From NCBI GenBank assembly GCA_028703535.1, contig JAQVMQ010000002.1, forward strand, positions 1 through 36,629: 36,629 bases of DNA, written 5' to 3'. This DNA comes from Candidatus Omnitrophota bacterium. Its GTDB lineage: Bacteria > Omnitrophota > Gorgyraeia > Duberdicusellales > 4484-171. Under the pieces are notes generated by a model. That model had not been told where the DNA came from. It saw only the letters and a program-made list of their open reading frames with translations, and did not search any database. Both the position numbers and the translations under genes were made by a program. This document shows, one piece after another, positions 16,181 through 36,352 of the stretch. Every line of letters begins with the position of its first letter. Position 1 is the stretch's first letter.

Positions 16181-16738
16181 ATGCCAAAAGAGATTGAGAC
16201 TAAATTTAAAATAAAAGATGTTGCTGCTTTTAAGATAAAGCTTCAAGAACTTGGGGCGAAGTTTGTTGAACAGCGGTTTGAGGCTGACGTTTATTATTCC
16301 CCGGCTGTGCAGGGTTTATTTAACGGAACTGTAAGGGTGCGCTCTTTGGATAAAGGCGGAGAGTTTACTATTAAGTATAATTCTGGCGGCAGCGACAAGA
16401 CTTTTAAAGTTAGGCAGGAACTGCAGGTTAAAGTAGACGATACAAAAATATTGGCTGATATGATTAGGACTTTAGGGTATACCGAACGTTTCCGAAAAGA
16501 AAAAAAACGTATGTTATATTCCTATGAGGATGCTGTCATTGCGATTGATATATTGCCGTATATCGGCAGTTATGTCGAAATAGAGGCGGAGCAGACAAAG
16601 ATAAAAAAGTTATCTGAAAAATTGGGGCTTGATATAAAGAAAGCTATACCGGATACTTATATGGATCTGTTTTCGTTGTATAAAGTGCTTCATAATGTTA
16701 ATGATATGGATCTGGTTTTTCCGAAAAATGAAAGGTAA
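16181..16738 (+). CDS. CYTH domain protein (class IV adenylate cyclase / triphosphatase family)
   Basis: A 185-residue CYTH protein. The diagnostic ExExK is at residues 4-8 (EIETK), and alternating charged beta strands (VRVRSLDKG, FTIKYNSG, AIDILPYIGSYVEIEAE) form the triphosphate tunnel. Family members either cyclise ATP (CyaB) or hydrolyse inorganic or thiamine triphosphate, and sequence alone does not decide. AGGACGAG precedes the ATG, and the gene ends 2 bases before the HPr-kinase-like gene. If it were a cyclase, the cNMP-binding patatin at 7371 would be an obvious local target; this is speculative. Confidence 0.85.
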   Translation: MPKEIETKFKIKDVAAFKIKLQELGAKFVEQRFEADVYYSPAVQGLFNGTVRVRSLDKGGEFTIKYNSGGSDKTFKVRQELQVKVDDTKILADMIRTLGYTERFRKEKKRMLYSYEDAVIAIDILPYIGSYVEIEAEQTKIKKLSEKLGLDIKKAIPDTYMDLFSLYKVLHNVNDMDLVFPKNER

Positions 16739-16740
16739 TA

Positions 16741-17787
16741 ATGTTTGATTTTTGCATATCTGTGGCTGATAAGAAAATAGTGTTTAATTGTGATTCACAA
16801 TTTTTGGATTATGATGCTTCCGAATCAAAAGAATTTTCTGAACATCTATGCGAGTGCGAATCTCCGGATCTTTGTTTTAATATTGAATATGGTAATGTCC
16901 CCCAATTCCGGAATAAAGAAATTTTATTCTCTGTTGATAATAGTTGGTTTTTATGTAAATGGGACGGGAAGTTTCTTTTGGAATATGTCGATAGGACTTT
17001 GCCGGGCAGGACGGAACGGGTAGGTGTTATAGATGAGGATCTTACAAATGGGACCATCTATATTAATCATGAAAAAACAGAAAAAGAAAAAGAATTGGCA
17101 AAGCAACTATGTGATAATATGCCTGATGGCATGGTGAGTAAACGGGAAAAAAGAGCGGAGAAAAAAACTGGTACGGTTAAAAAAAACGGCAATAAGATAA
17201 AGAAGAAAAAAACGCCTTTGGATTTAGGAAGGTCTGTTATGGCAGAGCTTAAGGCTAATTTTTTTCAGGCTTTTTTAGTGGAATATGTTGTGCGTAAACG
17301 TATGGGGTTTATTGCGCATTGTGCCACTGTCACTAAAGATGGCAAAACATATATTTTTATGGGCCAATCCGGGGCAGGGAAGAGCACTATAGCTGAGTTG
17401 TTTATCGATATATGCGGTGCTAGAGTATATAATGATGACCGGGCGGTGCTGAACGTAGAAAATGATAAGGTAATTTTTTATAATCTTCCATGGACAGGCA
17501 CACTTACAAATAAATGTTTAAAAGGGCAGGGGGATGGTTCTGAATTATGCGGGATATTTTTCATCTCGCATTCAAAGTCCAATGTCCTGAATAAAACAGG
17601 TAAAATAGAAGCGATAACTAAGATTTTTAAAAATAGCTTTCCGGTTTTTTGGAATAAAAAAGATGTTAATTATATTTTTTCTGTTTGTGAAAAGATAGCA
17701 AAAACAGTTCCATGTTATGATCTCGGATTTGTGAATGATAAGAATATTGTTAATTTTTTGAGAGATAACAAATGTGTGGATATTTAA
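16741..17787 (+). CDS. HPr-kinase-like P-loop protein of a PqqD/radical SAM cluster
   Basis: A 348-residue protein with an HprK/PEP-carboxykinase-like C-terminal half. GFIAHCATV at 189-197 corresponds to the conserved histidine strand, GQSGAGKST at 208-216 is Walker A, and ARVYNDDRAVL is the acidic metal-binding strand of these kinases. The N-terminal half has no match I know, and residues about 135-160 are a lysine-rich linker. Homologues often sit beside PqqD and radical SAM genes; related HprK-like enzymes phosphorylate a C-terminal serine of some lasso peptides (the PadeK/ThcoK group). The substrate here is unknown. AAAGG precedes the ATG; spacing is 2 bases from the CYTH gene and 14 bases to the PqqD gene. 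Confidence 0.8.
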   Translation: MFDFCISVADKKIVFNCDSQFLDYDASESKEFSEHLCECESPDLCFNIEYGNVPQFRNKEILFSVDNSWFLCKWDGKFLLEYVDRTLPGRTERVGVIDEDLTNGTIYINHEKTEKEKELAKQLCDNMPDGMVSKREKRAEKKTGTVKKNGNKIKKKKTPLDLGRSVMAELKANFFQAFLVEYVVRKRMGFIAHCATVTKDGKTYIFMGQSGAGKSTIAELFIDICGARVYNDDRAVLNVENDKVIFYNLPWTGTLTNKCLKGQGDGSELCGIFFISHSKSNVLNKTGKIEAITKIFKNSFPVFWNKKDVNYIFSVCEKIAKTVPCYDLGFVNDKNIVNFLRDNKCVDI

Positions 17788-17801
17788 AATAAGGAGAAGA
17801 T

Positions 17802-18089
17802 ATGGTTGACAAGAATAAGATCTATTCAAAGAATAAAGACATTGTAACACGGGAAATAGACGATGAACTGATACTTATGCCGATATATAAAACAAATTCA
17901 GAAATAAATAAGATGTATACACTAAACGAGACAGCGGCATTTATGTGGGATAAGATAGATGGTAAAAATACGGTATCGGAAATTATTAATATGTTAATTG
18001 GTAGATATGAAGGCGTGAATGAGGAAGAACTGTCTGCGGATTTCCAAGAGTTCATTGCTGACATGAAAAGTATAAAAGCTATTGTATAG
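17802..18089 (+). CDS. PqqD family peptide-recognition protein (RRE)
   Basis: A 95-residue PqqD-like protein. The pattern (DIVTREIDDELILM..., YTLNETAAFMWDKIDG, EII.ML..RY) is that of the winged-helix RiPP recognition element that binds leader peptides and presents them to radical SAM enzymes. The ribosome binding site AAGGAGAAG is strong. It is placed between the HPr-kinase-like gene and three SPASM radical SAM genes. A 14-bp hairpin overlaps its stop codon. Free-standing PqqD proteins act as chaperones for the peptide, so a peptide substrate is expected somewhere in the genome; see the candidate at 36113. Confidence 0.88.
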   Translation: MVDKNKIYSKNKDIVTREIDDELILMPIYKTNSEINKMYTLNETAAFMWDKIDGKNTVSEIINMLIGRYEGVNEEELSADFQEFIADMKSIKAIV

Positions 18090-18099
18090 CTTTTATACT
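18069..18099 (+). promoter_or_regulatory. 14-bp perfect hairpin over the pqqD-like stop codon
   Basis: AGTATAAAAGCTAT at 18069-18082 pairs completely with ATAGCTTTTATACT at 18086-18099, leaving a three-base loop. It covers the last codons and the TAG (18087-18089) of the PqqD gene, 35 bases before the first radical SAM start. No T-run follows, so a simple intrinsic terminator is unlikely; an RNA-processing, stability or attenuation element that changes the PqqD-to-maturase ratio is plausible. Confidence 0.6.
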
Positions 18100-18133
18100 A
18101 TGTCTTGCTGTCTGACCGGGTTTTTAAATTTAT

Positions 18134-19198
18134 ATGATAATTCAGCGTAAATATAAAGAGTTCGCGAAAGAATTGGATAAAAAAAAATCCGGTGTTTTTC
18201 CAGTAAGCGCGCAGGTAGAGCTCACTTATAGATGCCCTTTTGATTGTATACATTGTTATTCTAAGAATATCCATCAGAGAGAATTAACTACAGAGCAATG
18301 GAAAAAGATATTTGACGAATTGTTTTCGGCAGGGACAATTTATCTTACTATTACAGGTGGTGATCCCTTTGTTCGTGATGATTTTTGGGATTTATACAGC
18401 TATGTTAAGGCTAAGGGTTTTCTTGTTACGTTGTTTTCTAGCGGATATTTATTTGATGATGAAGTTATTGCCGGGTTAAAAAAGAATCTGCCTGTTTTGG
18501 TCGAGATAACTTTAAATTCTTTAAAATGTGATAAATTTGACAAAATATCGGGTGTGCCCGGCTCATTTGTCCAAGTTAAAGAGAATATAGAAAATTGTAT
18601 CAATAACAATATCCCTTTAGTTTTGAAAACTATTGGTATGACGGAAAATAAAGATGAGATATTGGATATAAAAGAATATGTTTGCTCGTTACTTGGCCCA
18701 GGTAAATTCAAATTTGATTCGTTTCTTATCCCTAGATTGGATGGTGATACGGGAGTGTGTAAATATAGATTAAATGCAGAGGATATCGCTGATATAGAAA
18801 ATAGCGACCCTGATATGCTTGCACAGCGGCAAAAAGAGTTTGCAGAGCATAAAAATTTAATGCGTGATAGTGTATATAAATACCATTGTAATTCGTGGTT
18901 TAGGCAGGCCTATATTACGCCGTCGGGATATTTGAGATTTTGCCATCTAAGCGATAAGTTTTCTTATGATCTCAAGGAATATAAATTTGCTGATGTTTTT
19001 TACGGCAGAGTGGCTGAGATATTGGAGCAAAAGCATGAACAAAATTTCAAATGTTTAGAATGTGAACTTAAGGAGTTTTGTAATTATTGCCCTGCCCGGG
19101 CGTTTTTAGAAACAGGCTCAGAGGAAAAACCGGTTGAGTATTATTGCGAGTTAGCACTTACCCGTAAGGAACGGCATGAAAAGATTAAAAATCTATAA
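18134..19198 (+). CDS. SPASM radical SAM peptide maturase 1
   Basis: A 354-residue radical SAM enzyme. C34, C38 and C41 in YRCPFDCIHCYS bind the SAM-cleaving 4Fe-4S cluster, TGGDPFVRDDF is the SAM-binding strand, and the C-terminal SPASM region has C-rich blocks (LRFCHL, KCLECELKEFCNYCPARAFL, YYCELA) for auxiliary clusters. Such enzymes with a PqqD partner make thioether, carbon-carbon or epimerised linkages in peptides. No convincing Shine-Dalgarno precedes the ATG, in contrast to the PqqD gene. It follows the PqqD stop by 44 bases and is the first of three tandem paralogues. Confidence 0.88.
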   Translation: MIIQRKYKEFAKELDKKKSGVFPVSAQVELTYRCPFDCIHCYSKNIHQRELTTEQWKKIFDELFSAGTIYLTITGGDPFVRDDFWDLYSYVKAKGFLVTLFSSGYLFDDEVIAGLKKNLPVLVEITLNSLKCDKFDKISGVPGSFVQVKENIENCINNNIPLVLKTIGMTENKDEILDIKEYVCSLLGPGKFKFDSFLIPRLDGDTGVCKYRLNAEDIADIENSDPDMLAQRQKEFAEHKNLMRDSVYKYHCNSWFRQAYITPSGYLRFCHLSDKFSYDLKEYKFADVFYGRVAEILEQKHEQNFKCLECELKEFCNYCPARAFLETGSEEKPVEYYCELALTRKERHEKIKNL

Positions 19199-19216
19199 CA
19201 AATTAATCGATACATT

Positions 19217-20344
19217 ATGGCTATAAAAAAAAGTAAGTTAAGTGATTTTATGCGTGGTGTTTATGAAAAAACACGAGGCAGGAAGATTCCGCTGCGTGCC
19301 ATGCTTGAGCTTACATATAAATGTAATCATAAATGTCTGTATTGCTATAATCCTGCCGGAGAAATAGATAAAGAAGAACTTTCTACAAAACAATGGTTTG
19401 GCGTTTTAGATGAGTTAGCTGTTCTGGGTACTTTATCTGTTGCGTTTACAGGCGGCGAGGTTCTTTTGCGTCCGGATATAACGGAAATATGCTTGTATGC
19501 CAGAAAAAAAGGATTTAAAGTTATCCTTATGACTAACGGATCGCTTATAACAGAAGAAGTTGCCGATAGATTGATAAAGATGGGTATCGCGCGTTTTGAA
19601 ATATCTTTTTTAGGCGCGAGCAAAGAAAGTTTCGACAGCATCTCACAGGTCTCCGGGAGTTTTGATAAAGTAGTTAATGCTCTAAAAGTGCTTAAGGCAC
19701 GGGGCGTAATACCTCAACTTAAGACCTGCGTAACGAATGTTAATATTAACGAAATAACAAAAATATGTGAATTCGCAAAAGCACTTGATGTTTCATTTAG
19801 TTATTCGCCGCTTGTTATCCCAAAACTGGATTTAGATAATGGACCGAATAAATTCAGGATAGGTCCTGCAGAATTTCTGGATATTAAGAGGAAAGTCAAA
19901 GATGCGCTTGCGTTTGATGATAAGCCTTTATCAGAAAAGAAGATTAAAAGAATAAAAGAAATGAATAAAAAGCGTCAGGAACGGCCTGGCTTTTGGGAGC
20001 GTGAAAGATTGTTCAATTGTATGGCGGGCAGTTCAGGAATATTTATAAATCCTTATGGGGAAATGAAAGTATGCATGACAGTGCCTGATCCAAGTTTTAA
20101 TGTTTTACAGTTCGGAGTCATGGGCGCTTGGCGTAAGTGCGTGGAGTTCGCCGATCAACTTAAGGCGCCGAAGGATTGGCAATGTTATGAATGTGAAGTA
20201 AGAGATTGGTGCTCATGGTGTCCGGGGAGAGGATATCTTAATACGGGGAATATATTTGGCTGTCCATCGTATTTTAAAGAACTTGCGCAAGAACGATATG
20301 AGCGGTATAAGAAAAATAAGGCTAAGAAAAAGAATAAAGAATAA
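19217..20344 (+). CDS. SPASM radical SAM peptide maturase 2
   Basis: A 375-residue paralogue of its neighbours. The radical SAM cluster cysteines are C36, C40 and C43 in YKCNHKCLYCYN; FTGGEVLLRPDI is the SAM-binding strand. Its SPASM domain (FINPYGEMKVCMTV, WQCYECEVRDWCSWCPGRGY, GCPSYF) is complete. It differs from copies 1 and 3 in having CYN instead of CYS after the cluster and GGE instead of GGD, and in a lysine-rich segment before the SPASM domain and at the C-terminus, so it probably does not simply duplicate their reaction. The gap to the previous gene is 18 bases; no clear ribosome binding site is seen. Confidence 0.88.
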   Translation: MAIKKSKLSDFMRGVYEKTRGRKIPLRAMLELTYKCNHKCLYCYNPAGEIDKEELSTKQWFGVLDELAVLGTLSVAFTGGEVLLRPDITEICLYARKKGFKVILMTNGSLITEEVADRLIKMGIARFEISFLGASKESFDSISQVSGSFDKVVNALKVLKARGVIPQLKTCVTNVNINEITKICEFAKALDVSFSYSPLVIPKLDLDNGPNKFRIGPAEFLDIKRKVKDALAFDDKPLSEKKIKRIKEMNKKRQERPGFWERERLFNCMAGSSGIFINPYGEMKVCMTVPDPSFNVLQFGVMGAWRKCVEFADQLKAPKDWQCYECEVRDWCSWCPGRGYLNTGNIFGCPSYFKELAQERYERYKKNKAKKKNKE

Positions 20345-20349
20345 ATATT

Positions 20350-21444
20350 ATGGCAATACATTCTAGAGAATATAAAAATTGGTCCGCGGATGTACATCAA
20401 AAGTTTTCGGATAAGCCTATAGTAATGCAGATGGAAATTACATATCAATGTCCGATACGTTGTCTTCATTGTTATTCGGACTGTTATAATAACAAAGAGT
20501 ATGCTAAAAACGAACTTTCAACGGAAGAAATAAAGTTGATTATGGATAAAATCTATGCGGCAGGATGTATGTGGTTTACTTTTACGGGCGGTGACCCGAT
20601 GATACGAAAAGATTTTATTGAATTATATGATTATGCTAAAGATAAAGGGTTTATAGTTTCGGTTATGACAAGTCTTACCGCGTTGACTGATGATATTTTA
20701 TGCAAATTATCTAAAAAACCTCCATTTTCTATTGAGATGACTCTTAATGGTGTGACCAGAGAAACTTATGAAAAAATATCACAGGTTAAAGGGTCGTTTG
20801 ACCGTGCGATTAACGGAATAAATAGTGTAATAAAAGCCGGTTTACCGATAAAAGTTAAGACACTTATCTCAAAAAATAATCAGCATGAGGTAGAAGATAT
20901 ATCAGATTATTTGGAAAAGTTGGGATTGAAATTTTCTCCCAGCACATCGATATTTGCAAGATTAAATGGTGACAATGAGCCTTGTAAATATCGCTTGCCG
21001 GTCGATGATGTATTGAAGTATGATTTTTCTGAGGATGATTGTGAGTTGGCATCGTCCGTAGATGTCGATGATAAGACGCGGGCATATGATGGGATGGACC
21101 GTGTTTCAGGAAGTTTTTATCGTTGCGCAGTGGGATCATGGCAATGGCATATTAATCCTATTGGCCGGCTAAATATATGTTCTTGTGTTCGTGACGTGGA
21201 CTATGATATTTTGAATGGTAATGTGCTTGACGGCGTAAAATATTTAAGAGATTATGTAAAAAATAAAAAGTTTTCTTCAGCTGGTAGATGCGGCGATTGT
21301 AAGCTATGGCATATTTGCGGAAGTTGCCCGGGTAAAGCAAAGCTTGAGCTTGGCGATGAGTGTGGTGCGGTAGATTATTTTTGTGAATTGGCTAAAAAGA
21401 AGAATGTTATTTTAAATCATTATAAATCTGTAATTAAAGAATAA
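20350..21444 (+). CDS. SPASM radical SAM peptide maturase 3
   Basis: A 364-residue radical SAM enzyme, most similar in its N-terminus to copy 1. Cluster cysteines are C34, C38 and C41 in YQCPIRCLHCYS; FTGGDPMIRKDF is the SAM strand. The C-terminal SPASM region contains YRCAVGSWQWHINPIGRLNI, RCGDCKLWHICGSCPGKA and YFCELA. Starting only 5 bases after copy 2 and without a clear Shine-Dalgarno, it is presumably translated by re-initiation. With the PqqD and HPr-kinase-like genes it completes a five-gene set that looks like a RiPP maturation cassette without an adjacent precursor. Confidence 0.88.
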   Translation: MAIHSREYKNWSADVHQKFSDKPIVMQMEITYQCPIRCLHCYSDCYNNKEYAKNELSTEEIKLIMDKIYAAGCMWFTFTGGDPMIRKDFIELYDYAKDKGFIVSVMTSLTALTDDILCKLSKKPPFSIEMTLNGVTRETYEKISQVKGSFDRAINGINSVIKAGLPIKVKTLISKNNQHEVEDISDYLEKLGLKFSPSTSIFARLNGDNEPCKYRLPVDDVLKYDFSEDDCELASSVDVDDKTRAYDGMDRVSGSFYRCAVGSWQWHINPIGRLNICSCVRDVDYDILNGNVLDGVKYLRDYVKNKKFSSAGRCGDCKLWHICGSCPGKAKLELGDECGAVDYFCELAKKKNVILNHYKSVIKE

Positions 21445-21472: not shown

Positions 21473-23113
21473 ATGTCAAAAAAAGTTATGGTTATAGGGC
21501 TTGACGGAGCGACCTTAGATATAATCCTGCCGTTAATTGAAAAAGGCAAATTACCTAATTTGGCTAAGATAATCGATACAGGTGCTTATGCTCCGCTTAA
21601 GAGTGTTATGCCGCCTATTACACCTTGCGCGTGGACAAGCTCTGTCACAGGTAAAGACCCCTCCAAACATGGTGTTTTTGATTTTTCACAAATGGAAGAT
21701 GACCCTAGAAATCTTAAGAGTACGAACAGGACTTTTGTGAAATCTAAATATCTATGGAAATTATTAACTGAACGAGGCAAGAAAAGTATAGTTGTGGATG
21801 TGCCTTTGACTTATCCGCCCGAAGATATAAATGGGTTAATGATCTCACGGGTTATGGCGCCTGGCGGGAAAAACTGCACGTATCCGAAAAAGTTATATAA
21901 TGAGCTGAAAAAAAAGGGGTATATAAAAGGAATTGATAAGAAGAAAATCGGCGATGAGCATGGCGCAGACGCAGCGAATAAAGAAGAGATAAAGGAGAAA
22001 AAGCCCGAAAGACGCAAATTGACCAAAAAAGAGATGGCTAAGGCTATTAAAGAACGGACACAGAAAGCTTTTGAGCATATGTGCGAAGAGATAGAATCTA
22101 ATGTTAAATTAGCGCGGTGGCTTTTAACAAAAAAAGAATGGGATTTTTTTATGATGGTTTTTATGGCTACCGATCATGCCGGACATTCGTTTTGGCATGA
22201 TCAGGCTAAAGTTAAAAAGATATATGAAAAAGTTGATGAAGCGATAGGCGAATTGTTTGATGTCGTGGGCGAAGATGTAATAAAGTTTTTATGGTCAGAT
22301 CATGGATTTACAGGTTTGCCTTATTCTTTCAATATCAATGAATGGTTGTATGACAGAGGTTTATTGCGTAAAACTCTTGATATTGTCGGTGAAGAAAGTA
22401 TGACTTTATTGAAAGCTTTTATTAAAAGCAAAGATAAAGATAATAAAAAGCTTAGTAATTTTAGATATCAGATTGTTACAGATTTTTTGAAGAGCAAAGC
22501 ATATTTACAGTCCGGGACGGTGTATGGTGTTCGGATCAACCTTAAGGGCCGTGATAAGACGGGTGTGGTTGATGAGGCTGAGTATGAAGAATTACGTAAT
22601 AAGCTTATACGAGATATGAAAAAATTGGTACATCCTTTGACAAATAAAAAGGTTTTTGAAAAAGTTTGGAAAAAAGAAGAAGTATATTCTATGGGCGTGA
22701 CGGATGCTGTGGCTGCGCCTGATATATTTTTTCTGCCGACGGATATGGATGTAATGATTAAAGGGCAGTTTAAACAAACGCAAAAAATTTTCTCAAAAAG
22801 TGCTAAAGGATATGGGTTTCATCATTATTACGGGGTCTTTTTCGCGCATGGCGAAGGTATAAAAAATACGAAAATTAAGAACGCAGATCTTATCGATATG
22901 ATGCCTACAGTATTGCATGTTATGGGTGAAGCTGTGCCGGAAGATTGTGACGGTAAAGTTTTAACCGCGATTTTTGAAAAAAAATCTGATTTTTATAACA
23001 GGGTTATAGAATATTCGGCTTCGAGTCAAATAGAAACTGAAGAATCTGTTTATTCTGCTGATGAAGAAGCTCAGATAAAGCAAAGGCTTGAAGATCTGGG
23101 GTATATAGAATAA
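21473..23113 (+). CDS. AlkP-superfamily phosphodiesterase/nucleotide pyrophosphatase-like hydrolase
   Basis: A 546-residue type I phosphodiesterase family protein. VIGLDGATLDII is the first metal site, PPITPCAWTSSVTGKDPSKH the segment with the nucleophile, ATDHAGHSFWH and SDHGF further metal ligands. A charged Lys/Glu insertion spans about residues 145-200. No signal peptide, so it acts in the cytoplasm. AAAGGAG precedes the ATG. It follows the three radical SAM genes by 28 bases in the same operon; hydrolases of this type occur beside PqqD/radical SAM sets in other bacteria. Possible jobs are removal of a nucleotide, phosphate or sugar-phosphate group; the substrate is unknown. Confidence 0.85.
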   Translation: MSKKVMVIGLDGATLDIILPLIEKGKLPNLAKIIDTGAYAPLKSVMPPITPCAWTSSVTGKDPSKHGVFDFSQMEDDPRNLKSTNRTFVKSKYLWKLLTERGKKSIVVDVPLTYPPEDINGLMISRVMAPGGKNCTYPKKLYNELKKKGYIKGIDKKKIGDEHGADAANKEEIKEKKPERRKLTKKEMAKAIKERTQKAFEHMCEEIESNVKLARWLLTKKEWDFFMMVFMATDHAGHSFWHDQAKVKKIYEKVDEAIGELFDVVGEDVIKFLWSDHGFTGLPYSFNINEWLYDRGLLRKTLDIVGEESMTLLKAFIKSKDKDNKKLSNFRYQIVTDFLKSKAYLQSGTVYGVRINLKGRDKTGVVDEAEYEELRNKLIRDMKKLVHPLTNKKVFEKVWKKEEVYSMGVTDAVAAPDIFFLPTDMDVMIKGQFKQTQKIFSKSAKGYGFHHYYGVFFAHGEGIKNTKIKNADLIDMMPTVLHVMGEAVPEDCDGKVLTAIFEKKSDFYNRVIEYSASSQIETEESVYSADEEAQIKQRLEDLGYIE

Positions 23114-25027: not shown

Positions 25028-25045
25028 ATGGAAAAAACAAAATGA
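25028..25045 (+). CDS. Possible five-codon leader ORF (MEKTK)
   Basis: ATG-GAA-AAA-ACA-AAA-TGA lies just before the radical SAM gene; its TGA overlaps the downstream ATG at 25042 as ATGA. AAAGGA at 25015-25020 is placed 7 bases before this ATG and 21 before the main one, so ribosomes would load on the mini-ORF and re-initiate. Too short for any confidence as a peptide; it may only set translation of the next gene. Confidence 0.3.
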   Translation: MEKTK

Positions 25046-26310
25046 ATAAACATCTGCCTTTTTTACTTTTTTCTGATGAATCCGGGAAAATATATTCTCA
25101 TCCTTATTTGAAAGCGGCGGTACAGTCCGGTGCTGAATTCAAGGTTTGTGGATTGGATGAGTATATTAATGCGCCGCTTGGTACTAATTTTTTTTATTTA
25201 CCGAATATATATCCGGTCGGATATGATCCTTTATCCGGCTGTTTTGAAACTCTTGAACATTATAAGGGTAAAAAAGTTTTTGCTGTTTCTTCGTTTTTCC
25301 CGCCGGCATATTTAAGACTTAATAATACGGCCGGTGTATATAATGCCGGAAGTTGTATCTTGCCTTTTTGGGCGTATACAGCGTGCGGCTATTACGGAGG
25401 TAATTTTAAGATCTCTGCTATGCGTATAGATAAACGGCGTCGTCAAAGTCCGAATTTTTATGATGATGATAAGGTCAGATCCGGGGTATCGTTGTTTTAT
25501 GAAAGAAATAGTAGGAATAGGTTATATGAACATTTAGCCAATTGTGCGCTTAATTATAATTGTTTAGCAGCTAAAAATATGTTTTTGAACCGATGGGAAG
25601 CACCGGTGCCAACAGCTCAAAGGTGTAACGCCCGCTGTATAGGTTGTATATCAAAGAATCAAAAAGATTTTCCATGCGCGCCGCATGGCCGTATATCTTT
25701 TCGGCCTACGGTATGTGAAATAGCTGAGCTTATGGAACATCATTTAGCTACTGCGCCGCAAGCTATAGTGAGTTTTGGGCAGGGTTGCGAGGGCGAGCCG
25801 TTGCTTGAAACAAAAAATATTGCGGCGGCAATTTCAACGGTTAGAAAAGGTGTTTTGCGCGGCACGATTAATATGAATACTAACGGCAGTTTACCGGAAA
25901 AGGTATCTCAGCTATGTGATGCCGGAATGGATTCTTTTAGAATAAGTTTAAATAGCACAAGAGAAAATATATATAAACTTTATTTCAGGCCGTATAGTTA
26001 TAAGTTTAAGGATGTAATTCGTTCAATAAATACGGCAAAACGTAAAAATAAATTTGTTTCAATAAATCTTTTTGTGTTCCCGGGCGTTACAGATAGTGAA
26101 GCGGAAGTTAAAAGTCTTCTTAAATTTATTGAGAATACAGGAATAGATATGATACAGTGGCGTAATTTGAATATTGATACTAAATTGTATATTGATCTGG
26201 TGAAAGAGAAAACGCCGGGAGTAGGTATAAAAACATTGGTTAAGTTGATAAAAGGAAAATTTCCAAAGCTTAAAAACGGATATTTTAATTTACCTAAAGA
26301 AGATTTTTAA
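25042..26310 (+). CDS. Radical SAM protein with unknown N-terminal domain
   Basis: A 422-residue radical SAM enzyme unlike the three tandem ones. The cluster cysteines C195, C199 and C202 (QRCNARCIGC) are preceded by about 190 residues with no recognised domain that include several cysteines (C36, C67, C105, C115). FGQGCEGEPLL replaces the usual GGEP strand, followed by MNTNGSLPEKV and SFRISLNS. There is no C-terminal SPASM region. Similar long-N-terminus radical SAM proteins are found in anaerobes, but no reaction is known to me. It has a 149-base upstream region with no feature I can name, apart from a mini-ORF overlapping its start. Confidence 0.8.
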   Translation: MNKHLPFLLFSDESGKIYSHPYLKAAVQSGAEFKVCGLDEYINAPLGTNFFYLPNIYPVGYDPLSGCFETLEHYKGKKVFAVSSFFPPAYLRLNNTAGVYNAGSCILPFWAYTACGYYGGNFKISAMRIDKRRRQSPNFYDDDKVRSGVSLFYERNSRNRLYEHLANCALNYNCLAAKNMFLNRWEAPVPTAQRCNARCIGCISKNQKDFPCAPHGRISFRPTVCEIAELMEHHLATAPQAIVSFGQGCEGEPLLETKNIAAAISTVRKGVLRGTINMNTNGSLPEKVSQLCDAGMDSFRISLNSTRENIYKLYFRPYSYKFKDVIRSINTAKRKNKFVSINLFVFPGVTDSEAEVKSLLKFIENTGIDMIQWRNLNIDTKLYIDLVKEKTPGVGIKTLVKLIKGKFPKLKNGYFNLPKEDF

Positions 26311-34186: not shown

Positions 34187-34219
34187 TAAAATAAATTGAA
34201 TTTATAGGGGGTGTGTACG

Positions 34220-34648
34220 ATGAAAGTGAGTGAGTTAATGTCAAAAAGGGTTATTACTGTTACACAAGACATGTCATTAAGGCAGGTCGGAGATATATTA
34301 CGAGATGATAGGGTCAGTGGATTGCCGGTTGTAAGCGGTGATAATACTTTGGTAGGTATTATTACTTTAACCGATATGCTGCGTTTGCTGGATCGTATTT
34401 ATAAATGGAAAGAAATTGAAGGAACCGGAAGCAGCGATGGGTTAAGTACTATGTTTGAAGAGGAAAAGAAAAAAGCCAAGGTTGCCGATTTTATGACGCG
34501 TGATGTTTTTACATTAAATGAAGACGATAATGTCGAAGATATAATGCATTTAATGTTTGCTAAGCAGGTGCACACTTTGCCTGTATTAAAAGACGGGAAA
34601 CTAGTTGGGATAGTAGGCAAACGCGATCTTATTCATGCCTGTTTTTAG
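34220..34648 (+). CDS. Two-CBS-domain protein
   Basis: A 142-residue Bateman module and nothing else. The first CBS repeat begins MKVSELMSKRVITVTQDMSL and ends at VGIITLTDMLRLL; the second begins VADFMTRDVFTLNEDDNV and ends LVGIVGKRDLIHACF. Such stand-alone proteins bind adenine nucleotides and sense energy state. ATG 34220 is chosen because GGGGG at 34207-34211 is 8 bases upstream. It follows the lipoprotein gene by 33 bases and ends the plus-strand gene run. Confidence 0.9.
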   Translation: MKVSELMSKRVITVTQDMSLRQVGDILRDDRVSGLPVVSGDNTLVGIITLTDMLRLLDRIYKWKEIEGTGSSDGLSTMFEEEKKKAKVADFMTRDVFTLNEDDNVEDIMHLMFAKQVHTLPVLKDGKLVGIVGKRDLIHACF

Positions 34649-34847: not shown

Positions 34848-35108
34848 TTATTTATATATTTGTTTTCTGTGGTCTATTCTTAAAACAATAATTAAAATTT
34901 CTTTTTCAGATATCTTATATATAACTCTATAATTTCCCCAACGATATCTCCAATATCCGTTAAATTCACCTTTTAATGCTTTGCCCAAATTTTTTGGATC
35001 TTGCGCAAGATATTTCTCTATTCTGTTTAATAATTTTTTAATTGTAATTTTATTGAGGGATTTTAAATCTTTTTCAACTTGACTGAGATAAAGAACATCA
35101 TATGCCAA
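34848..35108 (-). CDS. RelE/ParE-family toxin
   Basis: An 86-residue RelE-like mRNA interferase or ParE-like toxin. LSQVEKDLKSLNK, LGKALKGEFNGYWRYRWGNY and RVIYKI are the family segments, and the C-terminal LRIDHRKQIY is the usual end. The start is a TTG at 35108 with AGGA 6 bases upstream, giving the common MAY N-terminus; no ATG is available in frame nearby. It overlaps the antitoxin by 11 bases in the usual antitoxin-first order. Confidence 0.88.
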   Translation of the reverse strand: MAYDVLYLSQVEKDLKSLNKITIKKLLNRIEKYLAQDPKNLGKALKGEFNGYWRYRWGNYRVIYKISEKEILIIVLRIDHRKQIYK

Positions 35109-35316
35109 GATTTTTCCTTAATTCTTTGCTTGTTATTATTTTGGACTTAGGGTCATTGAAACGGTCTTTTGCTATTTGTGCGTCAGCATATTCCTCAAAA
35201 TAGTGAGTCAGGGCTGCAGTAATATAGAATTTTTCGGTACGGTTAGTGTTTTTAGCAAGTTTAGCCAGTTTATCTGTTAATTCTGTGGGTAATCTGAAAG
35301 ATTTTAAAGTTGACAT
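35098..35316 (-). CDS. Ribbon-helix-helix antitoxin
   Basis: A 72-residue antitoxin. MSTLKSFRLPTELTDKLAKL starts with the DNA-binding beta strand of a ribbon-helix-helix fold, and the C-terminal part (IAKDRFNDPKSKIITSKELR) would wrap the toxin. ATG 35316 is chosen over an upstream in-frame start because AGGAGA is 4 bases before it and the protein then begins exactly with the RHH strand. It is expected to repress its own promoter at 35361-35389. Confidence 0.85.
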   Translation of the reverse strand: MSTLKSFRLPTELTDKLAKLAKNTNRTEKFYITAALTHYFEEYADAQIAKDRFNDPKSKIITSKELRKNLGI

Positions 35317-35360
35317 ATTTTCTCCTATTATAGTTTGTTGTATCCTTCTAATGTGATACA

Positions 35361-35389
35361 AGTATAACATATGTATACATGTATTACAA
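35361..35389 (-). promoter_or_regulatory. Toxin-antitoxin promoter with operator palindrome in its spacer
   Basis: On the minus strand TTGTAA (35389-35384) and TATACT (35366-35361) are spaced by 17 bases. The spacer contains the perfect palindrome ATGTATACAT at 35371-35380, flanked by related GTAT/ATAC half-sites. This is the expected place for ribbon-helix-helix dimers to bind and block RNA polymerase. Confidence 0.7.
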
Positions 35390-36032: not shown

Positions 36033-36062
36033 TTGACAGAGTCGGGGGGGGGGGGATAAAAT
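36033..36062 (+). promoter_or_regulatory. Promoter with a G12 homopolymer in the spacer
   Basis: Consensus -35 TTGACA at 36033-36038 and -10 TAAAAT at 36057-36062 are separated by 18 bases, of which twelve (36044-36055) are consecutive G. The start site would be near 36069, about 44 bases before the ATG of the RiPP-precursor-like ORF. The 17-base version of the same hexamers is seen at 773-801. Slippage in the G-tract would change spacing and promoter strength, the standard mechanism of phase-variable promoters. Confidence 0.55.
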
Positions 36063-36112: not shown

Positions 36113-36352
36113 ATGAGAAAGAAAACCGGACACCATAATTTAAATAATAGCCGGTCCCGAGAGCGAAGCGCATCGGGAAAGACAATCAAACAAAACTGGT
36201 CAAAACCCGAACTAACAAAAATAAAGCTCAACCCGGAACAGGCGGTATTGAGTTGCTGCGCCCAGACTGAGCGTGGTCAGATAATCAATAGTTTTAACCA
36301 GTGCTCGTACTATTGCGGGTCGGGAGGGGGGGTCGCTGGCGTGAGCAGTTAG
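36113..36352 (+). CDS. Candidate RiPP precursor peptide (KPEL...PEQAVL...CC)
   Basis: A 79-residue ORF. Residues 1-25 are basic and Ser/Arg-rich; 29-46 read WSKPELTKIKLNPEQAVL, a compact amphipathic block of the type found in leaders recognised by PqqD-like proteins. The tail 47-79 has C48-C49, C64 and C68, then GSGGGVAGVSS: a Cys/Gly-rich core with a C-terminal serine. The body of the peptide is cysteine-, glycine- and asparagine-rich in a way not expected from random AT-rich DNA, and codon choice (CCC, CTC, CCG, CTA) is more GC-rich than neighbouring genes. The ribosome binding site is weak (GAAG 5 bases before the ATG). There is no maturase next to it; the PqqD and radical SAM genes at 17802-21444 are the likely partners. 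Function is inferred from pattern alone. Confidence 0.6.
   Translation: MRKKTGHHNLNNSRSRERSASGKTIKQNWSKPELTKIKLNPEQAVLSCCAQTERGQIINSFNQCSYYCGSGGGVAGVSS
36155..36178. repeat. Inverted repeat inside the precursor-like ORF
   Basis: TCCCGA at 36155-36160 and TCGGGA at 36173-36178 flank a GAAGCG-containing loop. The arm-loop composition is like small palindromic repeats scattered in many uncultivated bacterial genomes; it encodes residues 15-22 of the ORF (SRERSASG) and may have been inserted into the leader. Confidence 0.55.

Follow-up and report, generated by a model that had tools for sequence, protein, structure and literature searches.

The ORF at positions 36113–36352 of the window (i.e., the whole 36,629-nucleotide stretch of DNA from a Candidatus Omnitrophota bacterium) appears to belong to a RiPP family with at least 63 precursor genes dispersed over the genome. 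The explanation held with considerable confidence is that these precursors and the maturation set of the same window form a single radical-SAM RiPP family, in which one enzyme set would modify many dispersed cores and a kinase would act on their terminal serine. The family is apparently undescribed in the databases and literature searched. The preliminary description had recognized the precursor-like ORF, but missed its more than 60 paralogues, the near-invariant C-terminal serine, the HprK-type kinase and the CYTH-domain partner.

The ORF runs on the forward strand from an ATG at 36113 to a TAG stop ending at 36352, and encodes 79 amino acids (MRKKTGHHNLNNSRSRERSASGKTIKQNWSKPELTKIKLNPEQAVLSCCAQTERGQIINSFNQCSYYCGSGGGVAGVSS); it was assigned to family A from the reading frame itself, its paralogues, and selection and profile evidence. 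The motifs previously reported, i.e., WSKPELTKIKLNPEQAVL, SCC, QCSYYC and GSGGG, were all present, and the setting was gene-poor as described. The leader peptide (KQNWSKPELTKIKLNPEQAVL) falls at approximately residues 27–47 (QNWSKPELTKIKLNPEQAVLS), its conserved part starting near residue 27, and is followed by a core extending from Cys48-Cys49 to the C-terminal Ser79. Most of the N-terminal extension that precedes the leader coincides with a dispersed repeat (about 36126–36183), 87–90% identical to copies in L028, L037 and L038; since its first 25 or so codons overlap this repeat, the extension was considered atypical. The gene lies past the last conserved gene, encoding a CBS-domain protein (34211–34648), and a ParE-type toxin pair on the reverse strand (34848–35108 and 35098–35370; PF05016, 5e-12) found just before it; the small overlapping gene upstream of the toxin is probably its antitoxin. 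A run of about 10 G occurs at approximately 36043–36052, some 60 bases 5' of the start codon, and a run of 7 G within the core; these are possible slippage or assembly-sensitive tracts. The peptide matched no Pfam or NCBIfam family, and comparison of the precursors with both collections gave nothing credible, the best values (0.012 and 0.046) coming from single members only.

Although the copy at 36113 stands alone, the label 'orphan' that it had been given did not hold for the family, which is huge. The host genome (1.41 Mb in 90 contigs, about 90% complete) contained 61 places matched by the peptide, 49 of them with E < 1e-4, well beyond what chance would give. Profile searches of the stretches fetched around these matches identified at least 63 precursor ORFs (E <= 1e-3) across 29 contigs. 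The recurring leader was WxKPExTKIKLNPEQAVLSCC, common to two subfamilies. Subfamily A (about 47 members) followed the pattern W-x-K-P-E-I-T-[RK]-[IV]-K-L-N-P-E-Q-A-V-L-S-C-C-D-x3-[RK]-...-Q-C-...-C-...-S, with Arg or Lys five residues after the CC in all 46 aligned members, while subfamily B (about 12) followed Y-x-K-P-K-I-x2-I-E-L-D-x2-Q-A-[IV]-L-x2-C-...-G-G-x-Y-F-...-C-...-C-...-S. Among 46 family-A members, the leader codons had a pS of 0.78 and a pN of 0.20 (pN/pS 0.26), against 0.72 and 0.62, respectively, for the 12 codons after the CC. Synonymous change in the leader is saturated. The leader is under protein-level constraint, and the hypervariable core is nearly free except for its cysteines, the Arg/Lys and the last serine; hence, this was not the DNA repeat without synonymous bias that the preliminary description had named as its refutation. 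The genes thus displayed the hallmarks of RiPP precursors, being short and having a conserved leader and a variable core, and genome comparison supports the precursor identity that had been inferred, the modification itself being a prediction from sequence. The plasmid collection yielded no match by tblastn, while none of 10 pattern matches among viral contigs was confirmed, and so there was no sign of phage carriage.

The maturation set had been placed at 16741–21444 with no precursor next to it; domain matches showed that the set is real, and no precursor adjoins it in this genome. All of its genes are on the forward strand, in the order CYTH-HprK-PqqD-rSAM1-rSAM2-rSAM3. The first encodes a CYTH-domain protein (16181–16738; PF01928, 8.5e-17) with an ExExK motif, EIETK. 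CYTH enzymes have triphosphates as substrates, and it was therefore speculated, with low confidence, that this protein trims or uses polyphosphorylated serine. It is followed by the HprK-fold kinase homologue (16741–17787) and by a PqqD family protein, the putative leader-binding RRE (17802–18089; PF05402, 1.9e-16), which is the only confident PqqD copy in the genome. Three radical SAM maturases complete the set, at 18134–19198 (CPFDCIHC), 19217–20344 (CNHKCLYC) and 20350–21444 (CPIRCLHC). Each matched PF04055 at 1.5e-20 or better and carried CxxxCxxC together with a C-terminal cysteine pattern of SPASM type, comprising the SPASM cysteine set in the first and SPASM-like spacing in the others, although PF13186 was detected for the first alone. 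A type I phosphodiesterase (21473–23113, forward strand; PF01663), a homologue of which occurs within the G005 cluster, may be an accessory component, an assignment made with low confidence. Another radical SAM protein (25042–26310), with a MoaA-like region and CNARCIGC, lies outside the set and has no cysteines of SPASM type. A C39 peptidase exporter, a candidate for the leader-removal step, was found in neither the own genome nor G005. With at least 63 dispersed genes sharing a leader and a single enzyme set in the genome, one set probably modifies all of them.

The pairing of ORF and set had been inferred previously; it was supported by the single confident PqqD, by co-occurrence and by operon adjacency in relatives. 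Among 117 close relatives, PqqD was present in all 18 precursor-bearing genomes but in 48/117 overall (p about 1e-8). In a phylum sample of 285 genomes, 42 bore precursors; an HprK homologue was detected in 39 of these and in 36 of the 243 others (p about 1e-23), while PqqD was detected in 39/42 and 62/243 (p about 4e-17). Co-occurrence was what the preliminary description had suggested looking for; the p values are indicative only because the genomes are related. Three precursor-bearing genomes gave no HprK (G038, G224 and G240) and three no PqqD (G169, G224 and G240); contig ends cut the loci of G038 and G240, and G224 had one precursor, ending in serine, with no set detected.

Precursors were observed beside the enzymes in several genera. 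The typical operon was PqqD-precursor-rSAM1-rSAM2-HprK-rSAM3 (L119, L120 and L132; variants in L130, L131 and L139), and in G005 (L110) six precursors flank an HprK-phosphodiesterase-PqqD-CYTH-rSAM3 block. Homologues of the set enzymes also accompanied precursors in Saganbacteria (L012 and L016) and WOR-3 (L009), with no HprK seen on the short WOR-3 contig. The CYTH gene, which in the window lies directly upstream of the kinase gene, also has retained counterparts in G291, G005 and Saganbacteria L016. G291, from another family of the same class, had 105 precursor matches (E <= 0.01) of subfamily B, with one PqqD match and one HprK match, ordered CYTH-HprK-PqqD-rSAM1 and 44–56% identical to the window's proteins. 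Precursors therefore both co-occur and co-localize with modifying enzymes and an RRE, as expected of a RiPP. Locus L150 (1–6279) has an open frame of about 2,090 amino acids that ends just before a precursor; it showed radical SAM similarity (E about 1e-9) and no Pfam hit.

PqqD and SPASM enzymes are also the toolkit for PQQ and mycofactocin, and the models for both were among the matches of this set, which would suit the manufacture of one cofactor-like product from one precursor, all other copies being relics. No PQQ or mycofactocin family reached its cut-off, however, and the two genomes with about 60 and 105 differing cores have one set each, making such an origin extremely improbable.

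How the leader might be recognized was suggested by natural fusions of PqqD and precursor in a single frame (L020, L133, L138 and several in G020). In G020 the PqqD-like domain and the precursor shared one reading frame (L123, L125 and L143) or had overlapping frames (L124); these joined genes have long charged linkers with RERERE-type repeats, and the PqqD profile match spans the first half only. A model of the L020 fusion, built from six sequences and good only in the best of five models, placed a low-confidence linker before the leader segment 131–140 (pLDDT about 89), with a strand at 137–142 (EIAKVK). Its best PDB matches were TbiB1-TbiA leader complexes (TM 0.84 by target), and the model fits docking of the leader as an added strand, in the manner of lasso RRE-leader complexes.

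Among paralogues with 94–97% identical leader DNA, core identity was 0.47–0.51, compared with 0.49 for shuffled cores. Across pairs, it took no more than two to three codons from SCC for identity to sink to background (0.92 to 0.31), leader identity being in part the criterion of selection. In the close pair L021/L023, the near-identical block comprised the 5' region and leader, and ended at the SCC-Asp codons. Searches for DNA relatives gave 2 hits for core sequences and 189 for their upstream regions. Ordinary point mutation fails to account for this break in identity; recombination, gene conversion of the leader or cassette replacement could be responsible. It is possible, but doubtful, that in addition to this putative new radical-SAM RiPP family with its C-terminal serine kinase, the genome has machinery by which entire cores are swapped at a constant point after the leader; this would make it a natural combinatorial library of peptides with active exchange of cores.

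Dispersed repeats flank several of the precursor copies, and four are cut short right at the leader-core junction. At L022:5404–5511, L024:5836–5937, L021:8879–8974 and L030:1360–1503, four different leaders break off at or close to the same codon (EQAV), where a stop and a common repeat-like sequence, TTAGTCGATAGT..., follow. There were 9 matches to Y1 transposases in the genome, one being beside a precursor on C81, where the transposase gene directly adjoins a subfamily-B member (L140). Such observations would be expected if most copies were mobile or repeat-borne sequence (REP-like elements with Y1 transposases) in which a coding leader merely happened to be included, and only a minority were functional. 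Against this, leader pN/pS is low, 59 intact copies retain both the core cysteines and the terminal serine, and precursors elsewhere lie within ordinary operons. Dispersal by exact repeats was rejected since no 14-mer had 12 or more copies. A predominantly mobile or repeat-borne origin was consequently judged very unlikely.

The last residue of the core was almost invariant. Serine was terminal in 58 of 59 intact precursors from the own genome, 72 of 73 from G291 and 14 of 17 from G005; in other Omnitrophota it was terminal in 31/34, with threonine in the remaining 3/34. Serine accounts for 8–13% of residues within cores. The terminal serine was encoded by both codon families (AGY 43, TCN 12), and so is not only a DNA signal; nonetheless, AGY made up 43/55 of terminal serine codons and 58/168 of those in the core, and due to this excess part of the 3'-end conservation may operate at the DNA level. 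According to a review of lasso peptides (PMC9266682), PadeK phosphorylates the C-terminal serine of the precursor, which is extremely conserved wherever the kinase gene occurs, and His-Lys-Asp-Asp residues are imperative in PadeK and ThcoK; ThcoK and SyanK can attach as many as four phosphates. Both features of these kinases, i.e., the four residues and a substrate with a conserved C-terminal serine, were found here. Of the equivalent positions in 20 HprK-like proteins from the loci, His193, Lys214 (Walker A) and Asp232 were present in 20/20 and Asp233 in 17/20. The modelled window protein (pLDDT 74.6) matched the folds of PEP carboxykinase and HPr(Ser) kinase/phosphatase. Phosphorylation of the last serine is likely to be the most economical function for this protein, given the terminal serine, the catalytic residues, the predicted fold and the lasso precedent.

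The sequence homology of the window protein to known kinases was weak: TIGR04352 scored 29 bits, far under the cut-off, and a PDB sequence search returned mainly P-loop matches to ABC transporters. Kinase activity is a prediction from sequence and fold, and the terminal SS or PS dipeptide and T-rich DNA past the stop suggest an additional 3' constraint. Hence, the precursors and maturases might be correctly paired while the HprK-fold protein has a different role, either acting on the leader or some other residue or being a regulator; the terminal serine would then serve as a protease or export signal. This was thought rather unlikely, given that His-Lys-Asp-Asp is conserved among HprK-like proteins, that the exceptional ends in other Omnitrophota are threonine, likewise a hydroxyl residue, and that lasso peptides provide an exact precedent for a C-terminal serine kinase (PMC9266682).

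Under the preferred explanation, in which the kinase does act on the terminal serine, PqqD (17802) would bind the conserved leader as a beta strand and deliver the peptide to rSAM1, rSAM2 and rSAM3. These enzymes would crosslink or otherwise modify the cysteine-containing core, thioether links being the most likely guess, and the HprK-fold protein would phosphorylate the almost invariant C-terminal serine; leader removal and export would presumably follow. One chromosomal enzyme set would in this manner act on a large library of differing cores. The scheme predicts a defined modification, a C-terminal phosphoserine, for which a test would need just two genes, while the PqqD-precursor fusions offer natural material for structural work.

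Four known systems were compared. Paeninodin-type lasso peptides (PadeK/ThcoK) share the HprK-type kinase with His-Lys-Asp-Asp, the conserved C-terminal serine and a stand-alone PqqD-like RRE, but the present system has radical SAM enzymes and cysteine-bearing cores, and its genome lacks the B2 protease family. A lasso peptide was rejected, the B2 leader peptidase (PF13471) being absent from G000 (the own genome), G005, G291 and 5 of 6 other genomes. Ranthipeptides and sactipeptides are alike in having SPASM radical SAM enzymes that act on cysteine-bearing cores; unlike these, the window set falls below every family cut-off and has a separate PqqD and kinase, and thioether chemistry here is conjectural. 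The SynChlorMet cassette (NCBIfam) combines the HprK-related ScmC, the PqqD-related ScmD and the SPASM radical SAM proteins ScmE and ScmF, and was among the best NCBIfam matches. It differs from the window set, which has three radical SAM enzymes and a CYTH partner, and its curated cut-offs were not reached (ScmC 25.8/125, ScmD 35.3/100, and neither ScmE nor ScmF above 72.6/400 bits); the family would supply a precursor set for an enzyme grouping that resembles it. Literature searches, with subscription papers and most preprints outside their scope, found no paper on SynChlorMet and none combining Omnitrophica, radical SAM and peptide; of the papers listed that treat precursor peptides together with radical SAM enzymes and PqqD, none mentioned HprK. 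These absences are weak evidence.

A parallel in organization was seen with the prochlorosins and synechococsins (ProcM and SyncM), which have 29 ProcA and 79 SyncA precursors (PMC10783134). There too, one promiscuous enzyme in a small genome is combined with scattered precursors having a conserved leader and variable core. Those are lanthipeptides with Nif11 leaders and a LanM enzyme, whereas here PqqD, three radical SAM enzymes and an HprK-fold kinase are associated with an unrelated short leader and a terminal serine; the precursors had no Pfam or NCBIfam match, and the enzymes of the set, to which the comparison with LanM was confined, were of radical SAM type. With 60–105 natural substrates to one set, the system would provide a ready test of substrate tolerance in these enzymes, and would be a radical-SAM counterpart of the prochlorosins in the small-genome, uncultured Omnitrophota.
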